The notes beneath the pieces are model-generated. The model was not told the DNA's origin, searched no databases, and saw only the letters and a program-made list of their open reading frames with translations. DNA of 64,000 nucleotides from an uncultured Candidatus Poseidoniales archaeon (GTDB lineage Archaea; Thermoplasmatota; Poseidoniia; Poseidoniales; Thalassarchaeaceae), in the NCBI GenBank assembly GCA_902625325.1, contig CACOAW010000003.1, positions 83,097 through 147,096 on the forward strand, written 5' to 3'. Below are positions 8,019-22,848 of the stretch, in pieces (position 1 is the first letter of the stretch; each line of letters starts with the position of its first letter). Made by a program: the position numbers and the translations under genes.

Positions 8019-9305
8019 ATGAGGCACATGAGCAACAGGAAGACGGCCGACAATGTGGTTGAAGCAATAAACGCCTCAGGTAGGCACTACCGAGATAGCC
8101 TACCTATGATTGCAAGCGAGAACATCCTCAGTCCGATGGTACGAAGAGCATGCGACTCAGACCTTCATGGAAGATATGCCGAAGGACTCCCAAGAAAGAG
8201 GTACTACCAGGGATGCGAAGACTTTGACACAATAGAGGAGATTGGAATTGACAGCGCCAAGCGTGTATTCAACTGCAGGTTCGCGAACATCCAATCAACA
8301 TCTGGCACCAACTCCAACATCGGCTCACTCAAGGCCCTGGCCAAGCCAGGGGACAAAATCACCGCCGTCTCAACAGCGGACGGCGGTCATATCTCCCATG
8401 CTAGGATGGGTGCAGTAGGCCTCCGGGGGCTGGACCTGATCACATATCCATGGGACGAGGAAAGAATGGAACCAGACATCGATGCAGCCGCATCAATGAT
8501 TCGCAAGGAAGAGCCTACAGTAGCCCTATTCGGACAATCCGTCTTCCTATTCCCAACTCCGTTGGAGGATCTGGCAGAAGCCGCTCATGAGGTCGGTGCG
8601 ACAGTGATGTACGACGCTGCACACGTGATGGGCCTAGTGGCTGGCGGACAGTTCCAAGACCCCCTCAGGGAAGGGGCAGACGTGATGACGGGGAGCAGTC
8701 ACAAGACATTCCCCGGACCGCAGGGAGGTTTCGTCATCTCGGACTCAGAGGACGAGAAGCTCCACCGCCGACTCAATAGCGGCATCTTCCCAGGGGTCTG
8801 CTCGTCTTACCACCTGCACCACGTTGCTGGCAAGGCAATCGCACTTTCGGAGTTCGAGGAGTTCGGAGACTCGTATGCCGCAGATATCGTCTCAAATGCA
8901 CAGGCACTAGGAGGGGCATTATCGTCGGAAGGGTTCGAAGTGATAGCAGAGGAGAGGGGGTTCACTGCCAGCCACCAAGTGGTAACAAGACACGGAGAGG
9001 TAGACTCGGGGGCTGGCAGAGATGCTGCGGCAACATTGGAAGAAGCCGGAATAATCACGAACATGAATATGTTACCAGGCGACACAAAGGCGCTCACCCC
9101 CAGCGGACTCAGGCTCGGGACTCCAGAGCTAACCCGAGTGGGGATGAAATCCGGGGAAATGGAGGATGTCGCACGCTTCTTCGCTAGGGCTCTCATTGAG
9201 GGTGAGGACCCGTCTTCAGTCAAGGCAGACGTCAGGGAGTTCAAGTCCCAGTTCCAGACCGTGCATTACTGCTTCGAACCAGGTCCGGCATACCCCGGAC
9301 TGTGA
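8019..9305 (+). CDS. glyA: Serine hydroxymethyltransferase
   Basis: GlyA interconverts serine and glycine with transfer of a one-carbon unit to a folate or archaeal pterin carrier. The PLP lysine is K229 in GSSHKTFPGPQGG. PMIASENILSP near the N-terminus and SGTNSN also match the family. Length 428 aa is normal. ATG at 8028 is an alternative start. It lies 40 bp after tRNA-Asn, and its stop overlaps the GTG start of the next gene (GTGA), so the lipoprotein gene is probably translated from the same message. With GcvPA/GcvPB it forms the glycine node of the window. Confidence 0.97.
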   Translation: MRHMSNRKTADNVVEAINASGRHYRDSLPMIASENILSPMVRRACDSDLHGRYAEGLPRKRYYQGCEDFDTIEEIGIDSAKRVFNCRFANIQSTSGTNSNIGSLKALAKPGDKITAVSTADGGHISHARMGAVGLRGLDLITYPWDEERMEPDIDAAASMIRKEEPTVALFGQSVFLFPTPLEDLAEAAHEVGATVMYDAAHVMGLVAGGQFQDPLREGADVMTGSSHKTFPGPQGGFVISDSEDEKLHRRLNSGIFPGVCSSYHLHHVAGKAIALSEFEEFGDSYAADIVSNAQALGGALSSEGFEVIAEERGFTASHQVVTRHGEVDSGAGRDAAATLEEAGIITNMNMLPGDTKALTPSGLRLGTPELTRVGMKSGEMEDVARFFARALIEGEDPSSVKADVREFKSQFQTVHYCFEPGPAYPGL

Positions 9306-12300
9306 CCAATCCACAACGTATTCAGTCGAAACCCCCTGTCCAATGCGTGCGAAGCGCCCGAACCCTGTCAGCAAGCCTGGCCCTCTTACTTCTGTTACCA
9401 GGATGTACAACCCCGCTGGGTGACGGTCAGGAAACCGAAGATATCGACTGCGAGATGAATCCGACCAAGGAGGGATGCTTCGAACCTGTGGTCACAGAGG
9501 ATGACTGCATGCCGACCCAAGTATTCACCGGGGAATCATGCAGGATTATGCTCAGGCCAGAGAAACTAGATTTCGGAACATCCGAGGCGACTCTGCAGAT
9601 TGGGACCGAGATGCAGCAACTGACACCCAGCTTCTTGGGGGACGCACCCAGGGAGTGGGCAGTAAATCCTCAGCTACCAGATGGGATAGAAATAGATCTA
9701 GAATCAGGTGTAATCTCGGGAACTCCCAACTATGATGAACCATCGAGGCATTATACGATTATCGCATCTAATGCGGCGGGAATTGCCTCTTTCAGGATCC
9801 AGATCACGGTACTACCCATTCCAGTCATTTCAGTACAACTCCAGTCGCCTGAAATGAATTGCACAATTGGTGAATCGTGCCACATGGAGACTCCATCTTT
9901 TTCGGGAGGAGAGCCAGACCAATGGGTATGCGAACCACCCCTGCCATCAGGACTTACACTCGGACAAGACGGCTCCATATCGGGGGTCCCCGACCAGGTT
10001 GGGAGTACAAACCACACCATCACGGGCTCAAACAATGGGGGTTCAGCATACGCCTCTCTGAAAATAACCACCATCCACGCTTCTCCAGACTCCATTGACT
10101 ACGGGGGAGAATCATTCACCTTCTCAATAGGTCAACCCGTCTCCCTGGCCCCTATCTCCTCAGGAGGGGAAATTACAGAATGGTCAGTCAATCCAGATCT
10201 ACTTTCGGGACTGTCAATCAGCCAATCGGGGGGGGTGATTTCTGGCATCCCCAGCGTCTTGCAACCGACAACAGAATACACGATAACTGCCGAGAACTCA
10301 GGAGGCTCAGTAAGCGTGTCAATCCTAATCGAAGTAATCGACCTGCCCATCTGGGATCTCGAATACACTCAACAATCATTCGACCTCTCTGTCGGAGACG
10401 TAGTACCAACAACCTCTCCTTCTTGGGGAGGTGGCAGTCCAACCTCCTGGCATGTCTCCCCCCAACTACCCCCTGGCTTCCAGATGGATCAGGGGACCGG
10501 AGAAATCTCGGGCATTGCAACTGATTTGCAGGAATGGTCTACTCACACGATATGGGCCAACAACACAGGAGGGGGGGACTTCACAGAAGTTTCCTTTAGG
10601 GTTATCGATCAACCTCCAAATCAGATCGCTTGGGAGAGCCAGGAAATCGCTCTAGCCTCCAATGAGAGCGCAATTATCAATCCATACTACTCCGGCCCTT
10701 CAATAGAAAAATGGGAGGTCTCGCCTGCTCTGCCATCGGGTCTTCAACTATCTGAGGATGGAACCATCGAAGGAATCCCGGATTCCAGAACTGACTGGTC
10801 TGAATACACCATTTGGGGAAATAACTCCGGTGGATCCTCGTCTAGCAGCATATGGATGGCCGTCCACGACCTCTCAGCTGATCAGGACGATCTTCTCAGG
10901 GGAATGGGGCAGACAAACTGGGGAGGTTGGCCATCTCCGATCCTCCCAATAGGGGAGTGGGCATTTCCCGTAGCCTTCTCTGAGGGGGGTTACTCATCGC
11001 AGATTCCCGTAATATCTGCCAGCCACGTCGGAAAGGGGAAGATGTTAGGATACGGTCACGAGAGCTGGGTATACGGCAGCGGCGGAGTCGAGGAGACTGC
11101 ATTCTCCCTCGGGGGCGTGGAGTGGGTATGTGGAAAAAACGCAGATGTCGGACTGGCTTACGGGGCCGGTTTCGAGGGATTCCGGGACGAGTTAGAATCA
11201 GAGGGTCACACGGTTCACCTTTCCGTGTCCCCCGACAATCTATCTGGTATCGATTGCCTTCTGGATGAGTTCTGGAACGGCCACGACGACGATGACAATT
11301 CAGCGATCGTCTCTTTCCTTCAAGATGGAGGTGGCTTGGTGATGGGAGGACATGCGTGGTATTGGTCATACACGAACACGGACGTCTCCCATAATTATCC
11401 CGGAAACAAGATCGCCAAGACCACTGGTCTGTTCGTCTCGAGTGCTTGGGGTTACAACGAGGTCGACATGACCGAATCGCCACACGAGCTTTCAAGGCCC
11501 AGAGCCGCGATAGAAGCGATCAGAGCCGATAGGATAGACGGAGAGTCACTCTCCATCGAGGATGCCACGATCGCTGACTCGACCCTCTCGATATGTACAG
11601 ATGTCGTTTCCCTAGACTTCCACAACTTCTGGTCATCCCTGAGGGAGGTGGTCAACCAGACGGGATGGACGGTTATCGAGTATGGTACATTGTGGGAGGA
11701 CGTCGGATACGATCTGGGCGAAGACCCCATCGCAGACACCCTCCTCCGTGTGGAGGCTGCCCTGACACAGGGGCTCCCTGCCAACGAACTGCCATCGCAC
11801 CCAAGCCACGTCGAGTTCCCGGGAGCGGTCCCCCCTGGCTCAGCCCGCATTACCAAGACGGTCTCGATAGACGGCAATCAGAGCGGACTACCCTCCAACT
11901 TCGGGTACTCCTCTGCTAGGGCTCACGTCAGGATGACAACAGGAGTATACGCTGCACCGGGCGAGGTCGTCTCGGTAACGGTCCCCAGTCATGTCGTGGA
12001 TTCCGGGGCCTACATCCTAGTCGGGGCTCATAGCGACAGCCTATGGGGCAAGGATCAGCTCCATCGGCATCCGGATATCGACCGCTGGTGGTTGGTGGAT
12101 GATGAATTAATGGAGGTGGGAAATGCATTCGGAGGATCCATCTATCTCGCAATAGAGCCAGGTTCGACGCTCGGAACCTTCGAAGTGACTCTATCGAACG
12201 CGGTAGAAGCGCCCACCTACGTCCACGGCGACACGGACGTCCAAGACTGGATAGACTTCGCCCGCCACTCCCCTGCTCCGTGGGCTGAGATAGCCAGCGA

Positions 12301-13360
12301 TCAGTTCATCCTTTCAGTACCTAGCCACGAAATCAGAGACCTCGACGATCCCGACGACCTGATGGACTGGTGGGACCAGGCTCTTTCGATGGAGCACGAA
12401 CTCTACGGCTTCCTACCTTGGCCACGAGTGGAGAGGGCGGTATTCGATGCTCAGATTTCCGCTGGGTGGATGCACTCCGGATACCCGTTCATGGCACACG
12501 ACCTGAGCGTCCCAGGGGTGGTCAACGTATCCCAAATGTCCGAGGAGGGGGATTGGGGCATGTTCCACGAGCTGGGGCACAACCACCAGTGGATGCCCTC
12601 CACCCTCCCGGGAACTACCGAGACCGGATGTAACTTCGCGAGCGTGCATCTAATGGAGGACCTAGTAGGGATCTCAGGGCATGGCGCGATTTCTCCGGAG
12701 CAGCGAGATTCTAGGACCAGGTCATACTTCGAAAACGGGGCTAACATATCTGACTGGTCCGTATGGGTCGCACTGGAGACCTTCCTGATGGTCAAGGAGG
12801 AGTGGTCATGGTCTGCGATCACAACTGCTCTTTCCGTCTACTACGACCTCCCTGCATCAGAGGTCCCATACACCGGAGAGGAGAAGTTCAATTCATGGGT
12901 CCTACACCTGTCTAACTCCACAGGAATGAACCTGGCTCCCTATCACGAGGCTTGGGGGTTCCCCCTCGACCAGTCGACATTCGACTCCTTGGATCACCTG
13001 CCCGTGTGGGTGGACGACCCATTGAGGGGTGACTACTTCGAGTACCCCGCTATCCTGAGGGGCCTCCACTCTCCCAGCATATCCGGGACCAACTCGACAA
13101 ACATCTCGTGGGAGACCTACGATAACGGCACCAACATCACACTGACAGTTTTCTATGGGGAGTCGGATGGCGGTTTGCAGCCATCGGCATGGTCCAATAG
13201 CATCGTCCACGGAAGTACGGATGTCGGTTACGACTACATCGAGATAGCCGGCCTCTCATGTTGTGGAACTGACTACTACGCGAGGATAAGGGCGTCTAAC
13301 GATGCAGGGGAGACATGGTTCGGACCCGTGATGTGGTCGACTGGCTACTCGGACGACTGA
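9302..13360 (+). CDS. Secreted lipoprotein: Ig-like repeats, GATase-like domain, M60 (enhancin/TCAF-like) zinc metallopeptidase
   Basis: A signal peptide ends in the lipobox LLPGC (Cys35), so it is probably a membrane-anchored surface lipoprotein. Residues about 70-525 hold five Ig-like repeats of He_PIG type, each with a W-x-V-x-P-x-LPxGL...G.ISG.P core. A GATase-1-like domain follows (about 545-720; DGGGLVMGGHAWYW near 673-686). The M60 peptidase domain (about 860-1240) contains DAQISAGWMHSGYPFMAH and the zinc site HELGHNHQW: H1089, E1090, H1093, with E1107 as likely third ligand. An FnIII-like end (about 1260-1350) closes it. The GATase-like plus M60 order is that of animal TCAF1/TCAF2. 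M60 enzymes attack glycoproteins or mucins. The GTG start overlaps glyA; an internal GTG at codon 16 is possible. Extracellular protease is a confident call; substrate unknown. Confidence 0.88.
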   Translation: MTNPQRIQSKPPVQCVRSARTLSASLALLLLLPGCTTPLGDGQETEDIDCEMNPTKEGCFEPVVTEDDCMPTQVFTGESCRIMLRPEKLDFGTSEATLQIGTEMQQLTPSFLGDAPREWAVNPQLPDGIEIDLESGVISGTPNYDEPSRHYTIIASNAAGIASFRIQITVLPIPVISVQLQSPEMNCTIGESCHMETPSFSGGEPDQWVCEPPLPSGLTLGQDGSISGVPDQVGSTNHTITGSNNGGSAYASLKITTIHASPDSIDYGGESFTFSIGQPVSLAPISSGGEITEWSVNPDLLSGLSISQSGGVISGIPSVLQPTTEYTITAENSGGSVSVSILIEVIDLPIWDLEYTQQSFDLSVGDVVPTTSPSWGGGSPTSWHVSPQLPPGFQMDQGTGEISGIATDLQEWSTHTIWANNTGGGDFTEVSFRVIDQPPNQIAWESQEIALASNESAIINPYYSGPSIEKWEVSPALPSGLQLSEDGTIEGIPDSRTDWSEYTIWGNNSGGSSSSSIWMAVHDLSADQDDLLRGMGQTNWGGWPSPILPIGEWAFPVAFSEGGYSSQIPVISASHVGKGKMLGYGHESWVYGSGGVEETAFSLGGVEWVCGKNADVGLAYGAGFEGFRDELESEGHTVHLSVSPDNLSGIDCLLDEFWNGHDDDDNSAIVSFLQDGGGLVMGGHAWYWSYTNTDVSHNYPGNKIAKTTGLFVSSAWGYNEVDMTESPHELSRPRAAIEAIRADRIDGESLSIEDATIADSTLSICTDVVSLDFHNFWSSLREVVNQTGWTVIEYGTLWEDVGYDLGEDPIADTLLRVEAALTQGLPANELPSHPSHVEFPGAVPPGSARITKTVSIDGNQSGLPSNFGYSSARAHVRMTTGVYAAPGEVVSVTVPSHVVDSGAYILVGAHSDSLWGKDQLHRHPDIDRWWLVDDELMEVGNAFGGSIYLAIEPGSTLGTFEVTLSNAVEAPTYVHGDTDVQDWIDFARHSPAPWAEIASDQFILSVPSHEIRDLDDPDDLMDWWDQALSMEHELYGFLPWPRVERAVFDAQISAGWMHSGYPFMAHDLSVPGVVNVSQMSEEGDWGMFHELGHNHQWMPSTLPGTTETGCNFASVHLMEDLVGISGHGAISPEQRDSRTRSYFENGANISDWSVWVALETFLMVKEEWSWSAITTALSVYYDLPASEVPYTGEEKFNSWVLHLSNSTGMNLAPYHEAWGFPLDQSTFDSLDHLPVWVDDPLRGDYFEYPAILRGLHSPSISGTNSTNISWETYDNGTNITLTVFYGESDGGLQPSAWSNSIVHGSTDVGYDYIEIAGLSCCGTDYYARIRASNDAGETWFGPVMWSTGYSDD

Positions 13361-14373
13361 CTCGCCCTGAGAAGTCCCTCCAAGGAGAACCATGGAATCG
13401 TCCTCTCGTGAAGGGCTGCCAGTGGGATCCATATTGCCGTGTGGATTATGGTAACCGCGAATGCAGGTACCAGGGACATCCTGGGTTCTCCCTCCATGGC
13501 CAAAGCCACCAGGCCCAGAATCGCGAAGTGAGCCACATAGATACTCAGAGAAAGCCTTCCCGCCGGTTCTAGGAATGAAAGCCTACTACCCATCAACGGA
13601 TTTCCTCCAGAAACTTCTCTTCCCTCGAGCAACCTCATCAAAAGCGCGACTACAGTCGCTGAAACTATCAGGAATGGCATACTAGCGGGGAAGAAGGTAA
13701 GGACAGCATCTCCAGAGGTTAGAGCCCATTCCACATCCTCGATTACGGATATCACGATTGTAGCCGACGTGGCAATGATTCCCAGAACTATGCCCCTCTC
13801 CCTGATTCTGGCCTCATGGGTGAGGTCGTGGAGAAATGTGCCAAGTATTACGAAGAACATCCAAGGAAAAACTGGGTATGTCCCATTCCAGAGAAGCCTG
13901 GCAAACCAATCCTCTACACTATCAGCATCGACCCGCTCGAACCAGCTTAGGCCCTGCCCTGCGTTCCCCCCAAGTATCAGGGGTGACGCACACAGAGTTA
14001 GCATCACCAGAGATCTAAGGAACTTACTGGTTCTGACAAATAATGGACATATCGCGGCTGAGATAGCCAACAGAGTGAGCACTCCTGGAGTGTGCCACTC
14101 GAACCTCCCGCCTCTGTCAACATTAAGGAGAACATTGACAGAGAGCTGGCAAAGGCATAGCAGGGCAACTCTAGGAATAATCCACCTTGCCCATTGGTAC
14201 GAGGTGTGTCCCTCTTCGGCTCTTCTGGACGCGCTCTTGTACATTCCCCACCCGGAAATGGTGACGAACAGAGGTGCGGCCATCCCTCCAAAAGCAGCGG
14301 CGACGAAAGCCGCTGGGTGACCCACCGTTATCCCTTGAGGGGGGACTATAGCAGCCGTGTGGACCTCTACCAT
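13345..14373 (-). CDS. Multi-pass membrane acyltransferase-like protein (DUF1624/DUF418-like)
   Basis: About nine hydrophobic segments, an N-terminal VEVHTAAI motif, MAAPLFVTISGWGMY and a C-terminal GRLSLSIYVAHFAILGL resemble the integral-membrane acyltransferase superfamily, where RG...HxxxxxAPLFLFLSG is conserved. The first ATG is at 14373, but the same frame continues upstream to 14439 with HIDRIRAIAVLC, which is just what the family has before this point, and no ATG, GTG or TTG is available there. A CTG at 14421 is the only near-cognate start. Either initiation is unusual or a one-base frameshift separates it from the ATG of the neighbouring frame. The 3' end overlaps the convergent M60 gene by 16 bp. 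Confidence 0.7.
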   Translation of the reverse strand: MVEVHTAAIVPPQGITVGHPAAFVAAAFGGMAAPLFVTISGWGMYKSASRRAEEGHTSYQWARWIIPRVALLCLCQLSVNVLLNVDRGGRFEWHTPGVLTLLAISAAICPLFVRTSKFLRSLVMLTLCASPLILGGNAGQGLSWFERVDADSVEDWFARLLWNGTYPVFPWMFFVILGTFLHDLTHEARIRERGIVLGIIATSATIVISVIEDVEWALTSGDAVLTFFPASMPFLIVSATVVALLMRLLEGREVSGGNPLMGSRLSFLEPAGRLSLSIYVAHFAILGLVALAMEGEPRMSLVPAFAVTIIHTAIWIPLAALHERTIPWFSLEGLLRASQSSE

Positions 14374-14492: not shown

Positions 14493-17174
14493 TCAATCTT
14501 CTTCTAGGCTCATCATCGATCTTGCCCCGACTCCAATCGAGGCTATCGATGCCACATACAACGCTGCTATCGCCATGTGTACATAGCTTAGCGGTGCTCC
14601 GGCTTCCCCTCCGAAGTTCGTCCAACCAAACATGCCCATATTGTCGGTTACTTGGGCCCTGTAAGTTGCTGCATCATCGTCACTTATTTCGTTGAAAACG
14701 TGTATCTCGAAAACCGGCATCGATTCAGTACTGTTTTCAGATAGATCTGGATTAAGGTTGCCAGGGCCGCGGGTATCCAAGTGGAAGGTTACCTTCACTT
14801 TCCCGTACATGATCGCAGTTGTAATCGGTTCGACCTTCAGGTCTATGTCCGCGGCAAGGTAGACGGGAAGGGCTCCTGGCAATACATCAACGTAGGATCC
14901 CGCACCAAGCAACTTTCCTTGTATCTGGGAATTAGATGGATCCAATTGTACCTTGTGCTCGACCATATCGATTCCTTTGTACTCGCTTTCGCTACCAACT
15001 TCAGATGTAGCTATCGCATACCCTGCGACGTTGAAGTTGAATGGGTCATTGGGGGACGCCAGAGACCCAACAGTCCCCATCAATGAGGTGACATCATTAC
15101 CCGCATGGGAAGATAATAATCCATTTGCACCGGATTCCCTGTGGGGCGCTCTCCAGGTGAGGTGTTCGGTCATACCGTAAACCTGACCATCCTCGCAGGG
15201 TATGTCATACCCCATGAAATCCCCATTTGAGTCATAATCATAGTCACAAAGGCCGTTTCCGTCGGAGTTAATGTACCCCTGGGCCATCCTCTGACCCATG
15301 GTTTCTCCCTTTGTGCTCATCTTGTACACCGAGTAGTCTCCTGTGCTGATTCCCCCCGATCCGTAATAGGTTGCATTTGTCTCTAGGCTGGTCCAAGGGA
15401 AGATTCCGAAGAAATCACTTACAGCATCGTTCCAACCGTATAACCAACTGCTAATGGGCATGGAGTAATATGGTGTGTTTCCAGTTACGAAGTTTAGGAG
15501 GACGGGCATCACAGTGTCGAAGTAGAAATTTGACACCCAATCCCTCAAGGCTGCTGCCTCTTGAATTCTGATTCCGTAAAGATTTGCCACGTAACCGTCA
15601 TCCCACGTGTGTTGCACACCCTCGGAATCCGGTAATGTCATCCCAGAGAGTTCGCCGTACATGAACAGGCCGCTGAATGAAGTCTTAAGTCCGATTTCTG
15701 GATCGTTGAGGATGAAATCAGATTTTTCCATCGATAGGCCCGAATCTCCAACAAAACTGCCCCTGTTGAGTCCTATGGGGATGTAGATTCCACCCAGTGG
15801 GTCATAATCGCCGAACGCTGTCAGCCACCATTGGTCGGAAACCATCGTGCCGTTTCCTCCCGCGAGAATTAGCTCGAATTCAGTAGGCGATCCAGTAAGG
15901 CCGAGGCCCACCCAGGGCTCAACATAATTTGCGAGGCTTGAAATCTTGAGCAGATCTAGGTTGTAGGTCGTCATTGCTCCGAAGAAGTCAGAACTCTGAA
16001 GTGGCAGGAGGAGCCCCACGACCATCCCTGGCAGCGGAATCCCACCGACCTCGAATGACGTTAGAAGGCCAACGCTATCGTTGAACAGGAGATTTTCCAG
16101 AGTCCCTGGGTCTTGTATTAGCAACCCGCTGACTGCGTTTAACCTCTCCTTGAGTTGAGGTGTTTGTGGGCTTATCTCTGCACCGCCTCCATGCCCCACG
16201 AATTTCGGGACTACCATGGAATAGATTGCAGCGTCTATTTGGAGGAATTGGGCATTGTCCTTGAAACCGAGGAGATGTGCCCTAGAGGTAGAGTTCCCAA
16301 TGCACTCAGTAAATGGGGCTTCGTCCATACTCAAGCAGGGAGCGCCAAGGCCTGCAACCAAAACAGGGCCAATGTCACAAGTTATTCCGATGCAGTTTCC
16401 ATGGCCGTCATTGGCGTTATAGAATATACCCTTTATTTCCTCGGTGGTGATATTTCCAATTTCTAGCGGGTGGTCGTACAGTTCGTCTATACCTAGTGAT
16501 TGGTAGGTACTAACGATTAGGCCTTCCTCAGCGGACATATCGCCGAATCTGCCCCCGCCAGATGCAGCAGCAATGTCTGCAACTTCGTCTGATGCCCATA
16601 TGCTGGGAGCCCTGTTGGATAAATCGAACTCAATCATCTGGGCCGCGAACATCGCCTTGGCGAAGATCTCGCCGTATTCTATGCCCTGTCCCATGCCAGC
16701 GATTCTTTGAGTGTTCCAGAGGATGTTTATTTGATTGACTACTGTATCTCCTGAAACGGATTCCTCCCCCTCCCAAGTGCAATCCCCACACCATTCGAAG
16801 GTCTCGTATCCTGAATATGTGATTGAACCTTCCTCGTAGTCATATTCTAAGACTTCTCTTGTCGTGTTTTCGTAGTAAATAAAGGGACCAACTCTCTCGT
16901 AGGAGGGTTCCGCTGTCCCAGCGAGTACCTCATCCAGATTCGAAACTGAGTTCGCAAAGTACGCTTTGGTTCCTGAGGAATTAATCCAATCGTCGTCGAA
17001 ATCGGCGGTGTAATCCCGATTACCATCATCGTCTAAACCATCGTAACCGTCGTTTACCGTTTCTTCCACTGAATCCTTGATTACTCCGTCCAGGACCCCA
17101 GAGGCTCCGACTCCCACGTTCATCAATAGGAGAATTACTCCAACACTCAATGCAATATTCCCGTTGTTTGCCAT
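14493..17174 (-). CDS. CD36/LIMP-2-like two-TM surface protein
   Basis: Numbered from ATG 17174 (preceded by GAGTGA; ATG 17210 is less likely), this 893-aa protein has one TM at each end (about 7-27 and 866-884) and a large ectodomain, the CD36 topology. Residues 75-102 carry the CD36 signature: NSVSNLDEVLAG, then PSYERVGPFIYYE, where CD36 has NPxEVxxG...EVGPYxY. A beta-hairpin region SITYSGYETFEW follows, as in the family. Near the C-terminus, AGYAIATSEVG and KGIDMVEHKVQLDP align with the family's PHFLYA...GLxP...HxxYLDIEP block. It is about 400 aa longer than human CD36 (472 aa), with insertions. Eukaryotic CD36 proteins take up lipids or bind ligands; a lipid-uptake role here is inference. 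Confidence 0.65.
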   Translation of the reverse strand: MANNGNIALSVGVILLLMNVGVGASGVLDGVIKDSVEETVNDGYDGLDDDGNRDYTADFDDDWINSSGTKAYFANSVSNLDEVLAGTAEPSYERVGPFIYYENTTREVLEYDYEEGSITYSGYETFEWCGDCTWEGEESVSGDTVVNQINILWNTQRIAGMGQGIEYGEIFAKAMFAAQMIEFDLSNRAPSIWASDEVADIAAASGGGRFGDMSAEEGLIVSTYQSLGIDELYDHPLEIGNITTEEIKGIFYNANDGHGNCIGITCDIGPVLVAGLGAPCLSMDEAPFTECIGNSTSRAHLLGFKDNAQFLQIDAAIYSMVVPKFVGHGGGAEISPQTPQLKERLNAVSGLLIQDPGTLENLLFNDSVGLLTSFEVGGIPLPGMVVGLLLPLQSSDFFGAMTTYNLDLLKISSLANYVEPWVGLGLTGSPTEFELILAGGNGTMVSDQWWLTAFGDYDPLGGIYIPIGLNRGSFVGDSGLSMEKSDFILNDPEIGLKTSFSGLFMYGELSGMTLPDSEGVQHTWDDGYVANLYGIRIQEAAALRDWVSNFYFDTVMPVLLNFVTGNTPYYSMPISSWLYGWNDAVSDFFGIFPWTSLETNATYYGSGGISTGDYSVYKMSTKGETMGQRMAQGYINSDGNGLCDYDYDSNGDFMGYDIPCEDGQVYGMTEHLTWRAPHRESGANGLLSSHAGNDVTSLMGTVGSLASPNDPFNFNVAGYAIATSEVGSESEYKGIDMVEHKVQLDPSNSQIQGKLLGAGSYVDVLPGALPVYLAADIDLKVEPITTAIMYGKVKVTFHLDTRGPGNLNPDLSENSTESMPVFEIHVFNEISDDDAATYRAQVTDNMGMFGWTNFGGEAGAPLSYVHMAIAALYVASIASIGVGARSMMSLEED

Positions 17175-17313
17175 AGTTTCACTCGGCCCGCCGAAAAGGA
17201 ACACAGGCATAAAGCATTACACTAGGTTTAGTTTCGAACACCTGCTTCCTTCTGATTTACTAACATCGCATAGACAAGGTTCATTTCGACATTCGCGGAC
17301 GATAACCTCAGGG

Positions 17314-17457: not shown

Positions 17458-17471
17458 CAGAGGATTTTGTG

Positions 17472-18407
17472 ATGAGTGCATCGATTAGAGTTCCATTGAT
17501 GATTATGGTCGTCTATTTCCTTAGTCTCTGGTCAGGAGTAGCAGCAGTCCAAGCCCAGACCTCGCCTGATGTTTCTCTTACCTGTGACCAACCAGCCCCG
17601 ATCGAGGTTTATCCTGGGGCTTTGAGGTCCACAATCATATACTGCACGCTCACAAACCCGACCACTTTCTCGGAGAAGGTCGATCTAACGTATCAACAGG
17701 GAATCATCTCAGTAGCGGGTCCTGGCTCAGCAACAGTACCCCCAGGGGACACATCCTTCCAAGTTGCTGCTAGGGCAGACCTGAGGCAACCGGAAGGCCA
17801 GCAAGTGGTAACGATAACCGCTACTGTGACCCAGTGGAATGGAGCTCCTGTTACTGCAGCTACCTCTCCAACAGAAGCCAAGGTGATGACCGTATTCAAG
17901 CAATTCAGCAGACTAAGAGTAGGAGCCGAATTGGCTTTCATCCAACTCAGGCCTAAGGTCGACTACACTTTAGTCTTCGATGTTTACAACGATGGAAACG
18001 CTAGGGACAAATTCAACGTTGAGATCCAGAATTACGACGAGATGATTGACGAGGGCTTCCAACTCAGTTTACCGCTGATTTCTCAGGAGATAGACTCCCT
18101 TGCTCCACCGGAGAAGTTCAGGGTGCAGATGAGGACGCCCAAGAACCAAGGATGGACTGACAAGTACTTCTCGTTACAGTTCAAGGCCACTTCCGAGTAC
18201 TCGGTCAGATCCGAAGGCGTCCCCAACTATCAGATTCAGGTTATGACCATCTACATCAGAGGCGTGTACCTGCCAGGATTCGAACTTGTGGGGACTGCAA
18301 TGATGGCGGCACTGGCAGGTGCGGCCATCGGCAGAAAGAACAGAGATAACCGGATTTCCGTGGATGAAGACGGGAAGGTCATCCCGGTGGACAACCGTCT
18401 TTTCTAG
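17472..18407 (+). CDS. Secreted, C-terminally anchored beta-sandwich protein, unknown
   Basis: A signal peptide (about residues 8-30, ending VQAQ) is followed by beta-rich sequence. The repeats of 'NPTTFSEKVDL' and 'NDGNARDKFNVEIQNYDE' resemble the NEW3/CARDB-like modules of archaeal surface proteins. A hydrophobic segment (LPGFELVGTAMMAALAGAAI) near the C-terminus precedes a basic KNRDNR tail, so the bulk is outside. ATG at 17472 directly follows a GTG in frame and is the likelier start. It sits with the following membrane protein, both on the plus strand with 74 bp between. Function not recognised. Confidence 0.8.
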   Translation: MSASIRVPLMIMVVYFLSLWSGVAAVQAQTSPDVSLTCDQPAPIEVYPGALRSTIIYCTLTNPTTFSEKVDLTYQQGIISVAGPGSATVPPGDTSFQVAARADLRQPEGQQVVTITATVTQWNGAPVTAATSPTEAKVMTVFKQFSRLRVGAELAFIQLRPKVDYTLVFDVYNDGNARDKFNVEIQNYDEMIDEGFQLSLPLISQEIDSLAPPEKFRVQMRTPKNQGWTDKYFSLQFKATSEYSVRSEGVPNYQIQVMTIYIRGVYLPGFELVGTAMMAALAGAAIGRKNRDNRISVDEDGKVIPVDNRLF

Positions 18408-20469: not shown

Positions 20470-22848
20470 TCAAGCACCTCCCGATATCCCTAAACCAGGA
20501 ATCCTAGTTCTTTCCTCAAGGTACCTGAGGAAGAGTGCTAGGGTCCATGTAATCAGGAAGTATGATATCAGCACCATGCCCCAAGTCCAGAAAACCTGGA
20601 AAGTAGTGGCGACAATTAACTTCCCCTGCCTTGTGATTTCAGCATAACCGATAATCATAGCTAGTGAAGAGTTCAGAACTAGGTTGACCATCTCGTTACC
20701 CAGAGGGGGTATGCAGATCCTGACAGCTTGGGGCATTACTACCAGCCTCATCGATTGCATGTAATTTAGCCCAATACTTCTACCAGCTTCCATCTGCCCC
20801 GAGGGGATTGCAGCGATAGCCCCTCTGATGGTCTCGCATTGGTATGCGCCCGAGTTCAAACCAAGAGCGAAAATCGCGCTGATGTATGCCCTATCCTCGA
20901 GAATCCCCCCAATCGGCCTACCATAGGCCAGCGATTCGGGATTCGTCTCGTATACAACGAAAATATCGGTGATGAAGTTGGAGTTGCCATTTAGGTATTC
21001 GAAGTCGAACAACATTAGCCCGGGGTCCTGCAATCTTCTCCCAAGCTCGAATCCGAAGTGTATGAACATGAACTGAACGAGCAATGGTGTGTTTCTGAAA
21101 ATGTCCGTGTATACCGTTGCAATCGTGTTCAATGGCCTGATGCTCCACGGATCGAGAGTGAAACTCACGTTGCTGAACTCAATTTCTCGTATGGAGAAGT
21201 CTCCATTGCATGAGAAAAATATGCTCCCCAATACGGCAATTCCAAGGCCCAGTAGAATCCAGAAAATTGCCCTAGGAGCCCCGATAGGAGAGTAGATGTG
21301 TTCCCAACCATCTAGGTTTAGGTCACTAATCTCGTTGAGATTATCGAGAATTCGATAAATCCCGATAAATATCAGAATTATCCCGATTGTACGAATAGCG
21401 ATAATGTTCAGTGGCTCACTGGCTGCAATTTGCAAGGACCTACCTCTACAGTAACCTAATGCGCCGCTGAAAGGATTGCCCAGATTCAATTTTCTACCAA
21501 ATCCAGTTGAGTTTATCGCTGAGATGGGAATTTGGAAAGCAAACCATAATGGCGAAACTACGAACATCAATAGAATCTGGAATCTATTGGTCTGAGCGAC
21601 ATTCTTGAGTGTAGTTGGGGATGTCTTTAACATTGAAAGGACTATTCCTAGGGAGAAACCCATTAGAATTCCAAAAATCACGATTTTAGCAGTCGCTACG
21701 AGTCCGTCCATCAATCTCTCTTTCGAGTAGTCGACGAATTGTCCGAAATCGTTGAAGTCAATCACCTCGAACCCGACGAACTCCTCTGATCCTGCGTTCT
21801 CTGTCCTGAGTACAACCCCTCCATCCCCCACGACAACCCCTCTGAAACCATCCAGCATAGCAAATCCATTGAACACCGTCTCATTCGAGACTGGAATCAT
21901 CTGCTGAGAGACTATATTCCCCCCGTCCAGACTGAGGGAGATGTAGCCTCCTGGACCATGTAGAATGAACTTAAATTGTCCAAGAACCTTCATACCAGAT
22001 ACTTCGAAGTCCAGATTCGAACCTCCAGATTCGAACTCATCCCCACCTCCCGGGGGGTATTCTCTTTCGATATCCACTGTACTCCAGACGAATCCTACGG
22101 GAACATTTCCTTCTCTTGACGACTTCAGAATGTGCCCTTCTTCTGAAATCGCGTATGCCCTAATCGTACTGAAGTATTCAACATCGATAATTGCCATCGT
22201 TGAAACCTCGCTAGGCGCATCTCTATACTCCCAGCTACTACCTCCGTCGGAGGTTGCAATTATTGCCCCGCTCTCTCCAGAAATAATTCCGTTTTCTGAA
22301 TCCAAAAATGATACACTGAGATAATTTCCCCCCTCTCCTTCGATTACTGAGTCGCATTCAGTGTCCCATTCCACTGTCATTGTGCAAGTCCAGACTTTAT
22401 TTCGCTCTATGACAACAAAACTATCATTCGCAGTGAGGGCAACGTCCTTGATATCGCCAAATATATCAGAACTTATATCCACCCAGAGGCCTTCTTTCAT
22501 CAGTAGGACAGTACCGCTATTTCCTGCTACGATTATTGATTCGTAACTAGAATCAGAAGAGGTTAGATCATGGCTAACTGACAATCCAGATTCAGACCAA
22601 GTTCTTCCTTCATCGATACTCCGGATCATTGTTCCTCCAGATCCGAATACCCAAATCTCGCCTCCTAGATACTCTGCGGTATACAGATTCTCCTCAGTCC
22701 CGCTGTCGACTACTTCCCACCCACTTCTGACCTCTTGAGCAGAAACTTCTCCAAATGAGAAAAGAAGGGCAATTAGTACGAGTGGGATTAGTAAATCTGC
22801 ACTACGCTTGCCCGTAGGGCCACTCCAGAGAGACGCTTCCGATGTCAC
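20470..22848 (-). CDS. Amino-acid ABC transporter permease fused to an extracellular Ycf48-like beta-propeller
   Basis: A GTG start leads into a signal-anchor (about residues 18-38), then about 330 residues of BNR/Ycf48-like propeller: IWVFGSGGTMIRSIDEGRTW, IIVAGNSGTVLLM, GIISGESGAIIATSDGGSSW, GVVVGDGGVVLRTENAG. From about residue 370 it is a HisM/AapQ-type permease with YTDIFRNTPLLVQFMFIHFG and the ATPase-contact EAA loop AGRSIGLNYMQSMRLVVMPQA. A long TM-containing insertion separates the first permease helix from the RNTPLLVQ helix, as in AapQ/BztB proteins. At 792 aa it is more than twice the usual permease length. It is followed directly by the ATPase gene. The import direction and amino-acid substrate are family knowledge; the propeller's role is unknown. 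Confidence 0.9.
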   Translation of the reverse strand: MTSEASLWSGPTGKRSADLLIPLVLIALLFSFGEVSAQEVRSGWEVVDSGTEENLYTAEYLGGEIWVFGSGGTMIRSIDEGRTWSESGLSVSHDLTSSDSSYESIIVAGNSGTVLLMKEGLWVDISSDIFGDIKDVALTANDSFVVIERNKVWTCTMTVEWDTECDSVIEGEGGNYLSVSFLDSENGIISGESGAIIATSDGGSSWEYRDAPSEVSTMAIIDVEYFSTIRAYAISEEGHILKSSREGNVPVGFVWSTVDIEREYPPGGGDEFESGGSNLDFEVSGMKVLGQFKFILHGPGGYISLSLDGGNIVSQQMIPVSNETVFNGFAMLDGFRGVVVGDGGVVLRTENAGSEEFVGFEVIDFNDFGQFVDYSKERLMDGLVATAKIVIFGILMGFSLGIVLSMLKTSPTTLKNVAQTNRFQILLMFVVSPLWFAFQIPISAINSTGFGRKLNLGNPFSGALGYCRGRSLQIAASEPLNIIAIRTIGIILIFIGIYRILDNLNEISDLNLDGWEHIYSPIGAPRAIFWILLGLGIAVLGSIFFSCNGDFSIREIEFSNVSFTLDPWSIRPLNTIATVYTDIFRNTPLLVQFMFIHFGFELGRRLQDPGLMLFDFEYLNGNSNFITDIFVVYETNPESLAYGRPIGGILEDRAYISAIFALGLNSGAYQCETIRGAIAAIPSGQMEAGRSIGLNYMQSMRLVVMPQAVRICIPPLGNEMVNLVLNSSLAMIIGYAEITRQGKLIVATTFQVFWTWGMVLISYFLITWTLALFLRYLEERTRIPGLGISGGA

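Follow-up and report, generated by a model that had tools for sequence, protein, structure and literature searches.

CD36-family proteins have until now been described as fat-binding receptors of eukaryotes, and a gene that resembles them in a marine archaeon raises the question of whether the family extends into archaea and, if so, what such a protein would do at the surface of these cells. The window analyzed here, a stretch of 64,000 nucleotides from an uncultured Candidatus Poseidoniales archaeon (a 1.42-Mb draft genome, 79% complete), carries such a gene on its minus strand at 14493..17174, where a preliminary description had claimed an archaeal CD36/LIMP-2-like protein. We propose, with a probability of roughly 55%, that the gene encodes a CD36-superfamily surface protein whose apex captures lipids and whose barrel passes acyl lipids inward. 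If so, this order-wide protein would be a concrete, testable candidate that may show how abundant archaea of the surface ocean take up lipids.

The gene and the topology of its product

The open frame comprises 893 codons, encoding 893 amino acids, from the conserved start at 17174. The frame itself opens 12 codons further upstream, up to 17210, but the methionine at 17210 has no counterpart in relatives, whereas that at 17174 is the start common to them. The product is acidic (122 D/E versus 35 K/R) and presumably resides in the plasma membrane. Hydropathy gave windows resembling membrane helices at residues ~4-32 and ~862-884, and the AlphaFold model places helices at residues 4-24 (17103..17165; this and all further features of the gene lie on the minus strand) and 860-884 (14523..14597). 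The N-terminal window recurs in 49 of 49 family members and the C-terminal window in 47 of them, bearing out the membrane helix that had been described near each end; the ectodomain between the two helices, put at 840 residues in the preliminary description, measures ~830. A surface-exposed hairpin topology is predicted with high confidence.

Sequence evidence for membership in the CD36 superfamily

An HMM search against Pfam CD36 (PF01130), suggested earlier as a check, returned the window protein at 30.2 bits (E 2.2e-7), above the curated cut-off of 26.5. The single-protein match spans only residues 72-160, or 89 of 893 residues; across the family, 49 of 49 members match PF01130 and no other Pfam family, with a best E of 2.2e-20. 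The DUF3068/PorA family gave no Pfam match in the window protein or in the 49 members. Given that automatic annotation by Pfam would label the protein CD36, the family name is probably attached to it in databases already. Searching the PDB by phmmer with the window protein (P0001) alone yielded one chance match and no CD36 chain, so that a family profile was needed. Such a profile (A2) placed LIMP-2 (E 8.6e-5) and CD36 (6e-3) on top, with a second collinear LIMP-2 stretch resuming after a gap of ~400 residues, and a profile weighted toward Poseidoniaceae (A5) recovered the same two proteins (5e-5 and 5e-4). A PDB search with the C-terminal profile alone did not recover CD36; the match at that end rests instead on a shuffle-tested profile comparison, on collinearity and on the fold.

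For the profile comparison, an alignment profile of CD36 and LIMP-2 with 401 positions served as template, its CD36 sequence being identical to PDB 5lgd chain A over all 472 residues, and column-shuffled profiles served as controls. The N-terminal, middle and C-terminal blocks of the archaeal family scored 53.2, 25.3 and 22.9, compared with maxima of 22.6, 21.0 and 20.1 among 200 shuffles, none of which reached the real score for any block. The matching blocks fall at template positions 30-105, 108-183, 245-257 and 377-401, collinear from N to C terminus; blocks 1, 2 and 4 each withstood all 200 shuffles, and block 3, a hairpin, is weak.

On the protein, the first of these regions is an N-terminal beta-barrel block at residues 63-150 (16725..16988), which overlaps the Pfam match and corresponds to LIMP-2 38-104. 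It holds the motifs NLDEVLAG (residues 79-86) and YERVGPFIYYE (92-102), located exactly where they had been described (16869..16940), which align with NPEEIL...VEEVGPYTYRE of LIMP-2. A post-apex block at residues 531-690 (15105..15584) corresponds to LIMP-2 130-215, and within it WLYGWNDAV (577-585) aligns with LLWGYKDEI. The C-terminal barrel block at residues 691-858 (14601..15104) contains EPIT (782-785), matching EPIT of CD36, and EISDDDAATYRAQV (829-842), matching TIGDEKANMFRSQV of CD36. The preliminary description had further claimed a C-terminal block in the order of CD36 proteins. The sequences it named, YAIATSEVG (719-727) and KGIDMVEHKVQLDP (733-746), are present at 14937..15020, where the AlphaFold model has strands at 720-732 and 735-744, and they match the CD36 hairpin ...NLKGIPV...; among all 401 template positions, the best place for this 'KGI' block is the expected one (244/245-257). 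Taken alone, however, the hairpin is weak, since 2-10 of 100 shuffles scored as high.

Predicted fold and comparison with known systems

AlphaFold models were made for one protein from each archaeal family, namely the window protein (pLDDT 83.7, pTM 0.75) and a relative of Poseidoniaceae type that is about 29% identical to it (pLDDT 79.5, pTM 0.65). For both, the top 13 Foldseek matches in the PDB were all LIMP-2 or CD36 at probability 1.00, with best E values of 1.2e-5 and 2.5e-6. TM-scores normalized to LIMP-2/CD36 were just 0.34-0.42 and rmsd mostly 5.6-10 A, as expected for the TM-scores at 9-15% identity with a large insertion, meaning that the barrel is not closely superimposed and its geometry not proven in detail. 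The models thus suggest an asymmetric CD36-type beta-barrel as a topology rather than as a close superposition. The comparison with LIMP-2 envisaged in the preliminary description agreed as to the nearest structures and differed at the apex, where a mostly helical region of ~370 residues stands in place of the three-helix bundle. A search of a viral structure library with the archaeal model gave no match below E 0.3.

These results leave little room for a protein without kinship to CD36 that bears a short chance or convergent match. The brevity of the Pfam match, the phmmer result and TM-scores below 0.5 are what such a protein might give, but all 49 family members tested match CD36, and the two models and the three blocks show the same order, which makes this reading very improbable. 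Taking the curated Pfam match, the PDB profile matches, the two models and the collinear blocks together, we conclude that the window protein is almost certainly a member of the CD36 superfamily, as had been claimed.

LIMP-2/SCARB2 (4f7b, 4q4b, 5uph) and CD36/SCARB3 (5lgd), both of PF01130, are its best structural matches and share with it a helix at each end and the same order of blocks (NP/LxEVL...GPYxY, WGYRD/WLYGWND, EPIT and a GDEKA-type motif). CD36 has 472 residues compared with 893 in the archaeal protein, which carries the ~370-residue apex insertion. The CD36 disulphide pair was not recognized among the eight cysteines of the window protein, of which 132, 643 and 660 are strongly conserved where an alignment column exists; such pairs are absent from nonmetazoan members of the family (PMC10715195), and their absence would not exclude membership. 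The next Foldseek match in both models, weaker than LIMP-2/CD36 (E 8e-3, probability 1.00, for the window protein), was LmcA (MSMEG_0317/Rv0227c, DUF3068/PorA; 7n3v, 7shw), a prokaryotic CD36-like barrel with cavities and a putative lipid carrier (PMC8972800). LmcA is smaller (the crystallized part comprises residues 30-323), has been reported from actinobacteria only, and has no sequence-level match to the archaeal protein; judged by fold, it is a bacterial relative.

An outsized apex

The insertion at residues ~161-530 (15585..16694) begins at the point where the apex bundle of LIMP-2 starts (LIMP-2 104 to 130) and is modeled as mostly helical, including one helix of 44 residues. It is present in all 49 members, in which the stretch from the column of residue 150 to that of residue 600 holds 428-522 residues. 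By sequence, the insertion alone found no relative in Pfam or the PDB, and sequence comparison revealed neither internal repeats nor resemblance to the barrel parts; against the CD36 profile, 8 of 200 shuffles were as good as the real alignment, which lay off the diagonal. Among 279 eukaryotic CD36 ectodomains, lineage-specific expansions are always found at the apex position, are built from several helices and contain no known domain (PMC10715195, whose text makes no mention of archaea). The archaeal insertion, being helical, domainless and located at the apex, follows this rule, and eukaryotic members with ectodomains of >500 amino acids also deviate from the three-helix bundle, which consequently does not define the whole family. 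The expanded-apex SR-Bs of Dictyostelium (LmpA), Phytophthora, Tetrahymena and Aurelia, enlarged at alpha4/alpha5, are eukaryotic, and their likeness to the archaeal apex is one of position and helical make-up. The same evolutionary hot spot would thus have been enlarged in archaea as in protists, either independently or by descent.

Proposed function

CD36 and LIMP-2 have an internal cavity, running through the barrel, in which they bind fatty acids, cholesterol and phospholipid (PMC6684646, PMC5712522), and they take part in the movement of fatty acids, cholesterol or phospholipid; palmitate has been reported in CD36 (PMC8972800). Every Poseidoniales genus has genes for fatty-acid degradation (PMC6461757), and in coastal waters transcription of Poseidoniales beta-oxidation genes is high (PMC9723583); the genome that holds the window encodes five acyl-CoA dehydrogenases, two AMP-binding proteins of the acyl-CoA ligase type and three 3-hydroxyacyl-CoA dehydrogenases. 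On the basis of the fold, the topology and these degradation genes, we consider it an even bet that the protein captures lipids and passes acyl lipids inward to the membrane for beta-oxidation. A CD36-superfamily protein in the plasma membrane of the archaeon would have both termini in the cytoplasm and hold its ~830-residue domain outside the cell, where the large apex may capture lipid-rich ligands such as phospholipid or fatty-acid particles, detritus or vesicles. Acyl lipids would then descend through the barrel by a putative hydrophobic tunnel, reach the membrane, be activated there, and enter beta-oxidation. A few genera lack the gene in an order that degrades fatty acids, an absence to be read in light of the incompleteness of the MAGs.

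A CD36 fold could also serve as an adhesin or particle receptor, the apex binding proteins, glycans or particle surfaces and anchoring the cell while no lipid passes through the barrel. In size the apex equals the barrel part, and no ectodomain region varies more between the two archaeal families than its first half (residues 151-380 are about 20-25% identical, residues 63-150 32-40%); eukaryotic relatives also recognize non-lipid ligands via the apex (PMC10715195), and adhesion to particles has been inferred for Poseidoniales (PMC6461757). On the other hand, superfamily members of known mechanism carry lipid in the barrel, and conservation is higher in the barrel-forming segments than in the first part of the apex, so we regard pure adhesion as rather unlikely.

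Gene neighborhood

The gene is flanked in the window by a membrane acyltransferase (Acyl_transf_3/HGSNAT-like; 13345..14373, minus strand) and a divergently transcribed gene for a choice-of-anchor T family protein (17469..18407, plus strand), with a tRNA-Met between. Close relatives keep this gene order; in other Thalassarchaeaceae both neighbors lie several kilobases off, with other genes inserted. Over the 79 loci compared, the choice-of-anchor gene adjoins or lies near the CD36 gene in 44 and the acyltransferase in 35; neither was seen in Poseidoniaceae loci, where the neighbors differ, and no lipid gene was consistently linked. No neighbor gives the function of the archaeal protein.

The acyltransferase, together with the rank of LmcA directly behind LIMP-2/CD36 among structural matches, is what would be expected of an LmcA-like carrier of lipids or lipoglycans that builds the archaeon's own surface with the help of the neighboring enzyme. 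We consider this improbable: the acyltransferase link does not extend to Poseidoniaceae, LmcA lacks the helical apex (PMC8972800) that is outsized in the archaeal protein, and sequence profiles recover LIMP-2/CD36 rather than LmcA.

Three other genes attracted our attention. At 9302-13360 (plus strand), the window encodes a putative lipoprotein of 1352 amino acids that combines Ig-like domains with a peptidase M60 domain (HELGH) of a mucin-peptidase-like family. An amino-acid-type ABC permease at 20470-22848 (minus strand) has an N-terminal half matching the beta-propeller family of the photosystem II assembly factor YCF48 (PSII_BNR), an unusual propeller-permease fusion that adjoins the same ABC gene in close relatives. 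In one relative (L046, 7732-10752), a protein with lamin-tail and phospholipase-D-like domains is encoded directly downstream of the CD36 gene.

Distribution and history in Ca. Poseidoniales

Relatives up to 96% identical come from Ca. Poseidoniales, Ca. Thalassarchaeaceae and Marine Group II. Of 146 genomes of the class, 113 contain the family by profile search. These include members of both Ca. Poseidoniales families; the listed genomes of the remaining family of the class, presumably Marine Group III, gave no match. When 293 genomes of the phylum were searched with Pfam CD36, 65 matched, every one of them from the two Poseidoniales families. No relatives were found on viral contigs or plasmids. 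A candidate bacterial member in a 'Pedosphaera' MAG (L078) was rejected as probably mis-binned, because its contig also carries the Poseidoniales choice-of-anchor neighbor gene (59% identity) and the other 194 genomes in the sample of that MAG's phylum gave no CD36-family match. In the gene tree of the 49 members, strong support divides a Poseidoniaceae group from the main group of Thalassarchaeaceae, and there are divergent extra lineages besides (midpoint root, some long branches). The simplest reading is that the gene was present in the ancestor of the order and that duplication and losses followed, perhaps with exchange among its members. Since occurrence in both families points to presence in the ancestor of Poseidoniales, any transfer would be ancient and a recent gain from a eukaryote is unlikely; the gene may derive from an ancient transfer in either direction or from common descent.

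In a search of the open-access literature (subscription papers and preprints lay outside its scope), no publication linked CD36 or scavenger receptors to Poseidoniales, Marine Group II or archaeal homologues. We tentatively suggest, at somewhat less than even confidence, that Marine Group II possesses a CD36-type receptor dedicated to lipids or lipid-rich particles, the first to be described from archaea, present in the ancestor of the order and equipped with its own giant apex. Archaeal members bear on the origin of eukaryotic SR-B proteins: together with LmcA in bacteria, the superfamily would span all three domains, and there may have been prokaryotic relatives of the SR-B protein that the last eukaryotic common ancestor is inferred to have carried; alternatively, Poseidoniales may have gained the gene by ancient inter-domain transfer.

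Some genomes carry more than one copy. In some of them two divergent paralogues lie head to head (L081, L082, L108 and L109), one of the Poseidoniaceae type and the other of a separate divergent lineage. At a further locus (L025; G025 C1:1135627-1138220), a second copy appears to be interrupted into open frames of 581 and 346 amino acids, in a single-contig genome that also carries an intact copy of the family.
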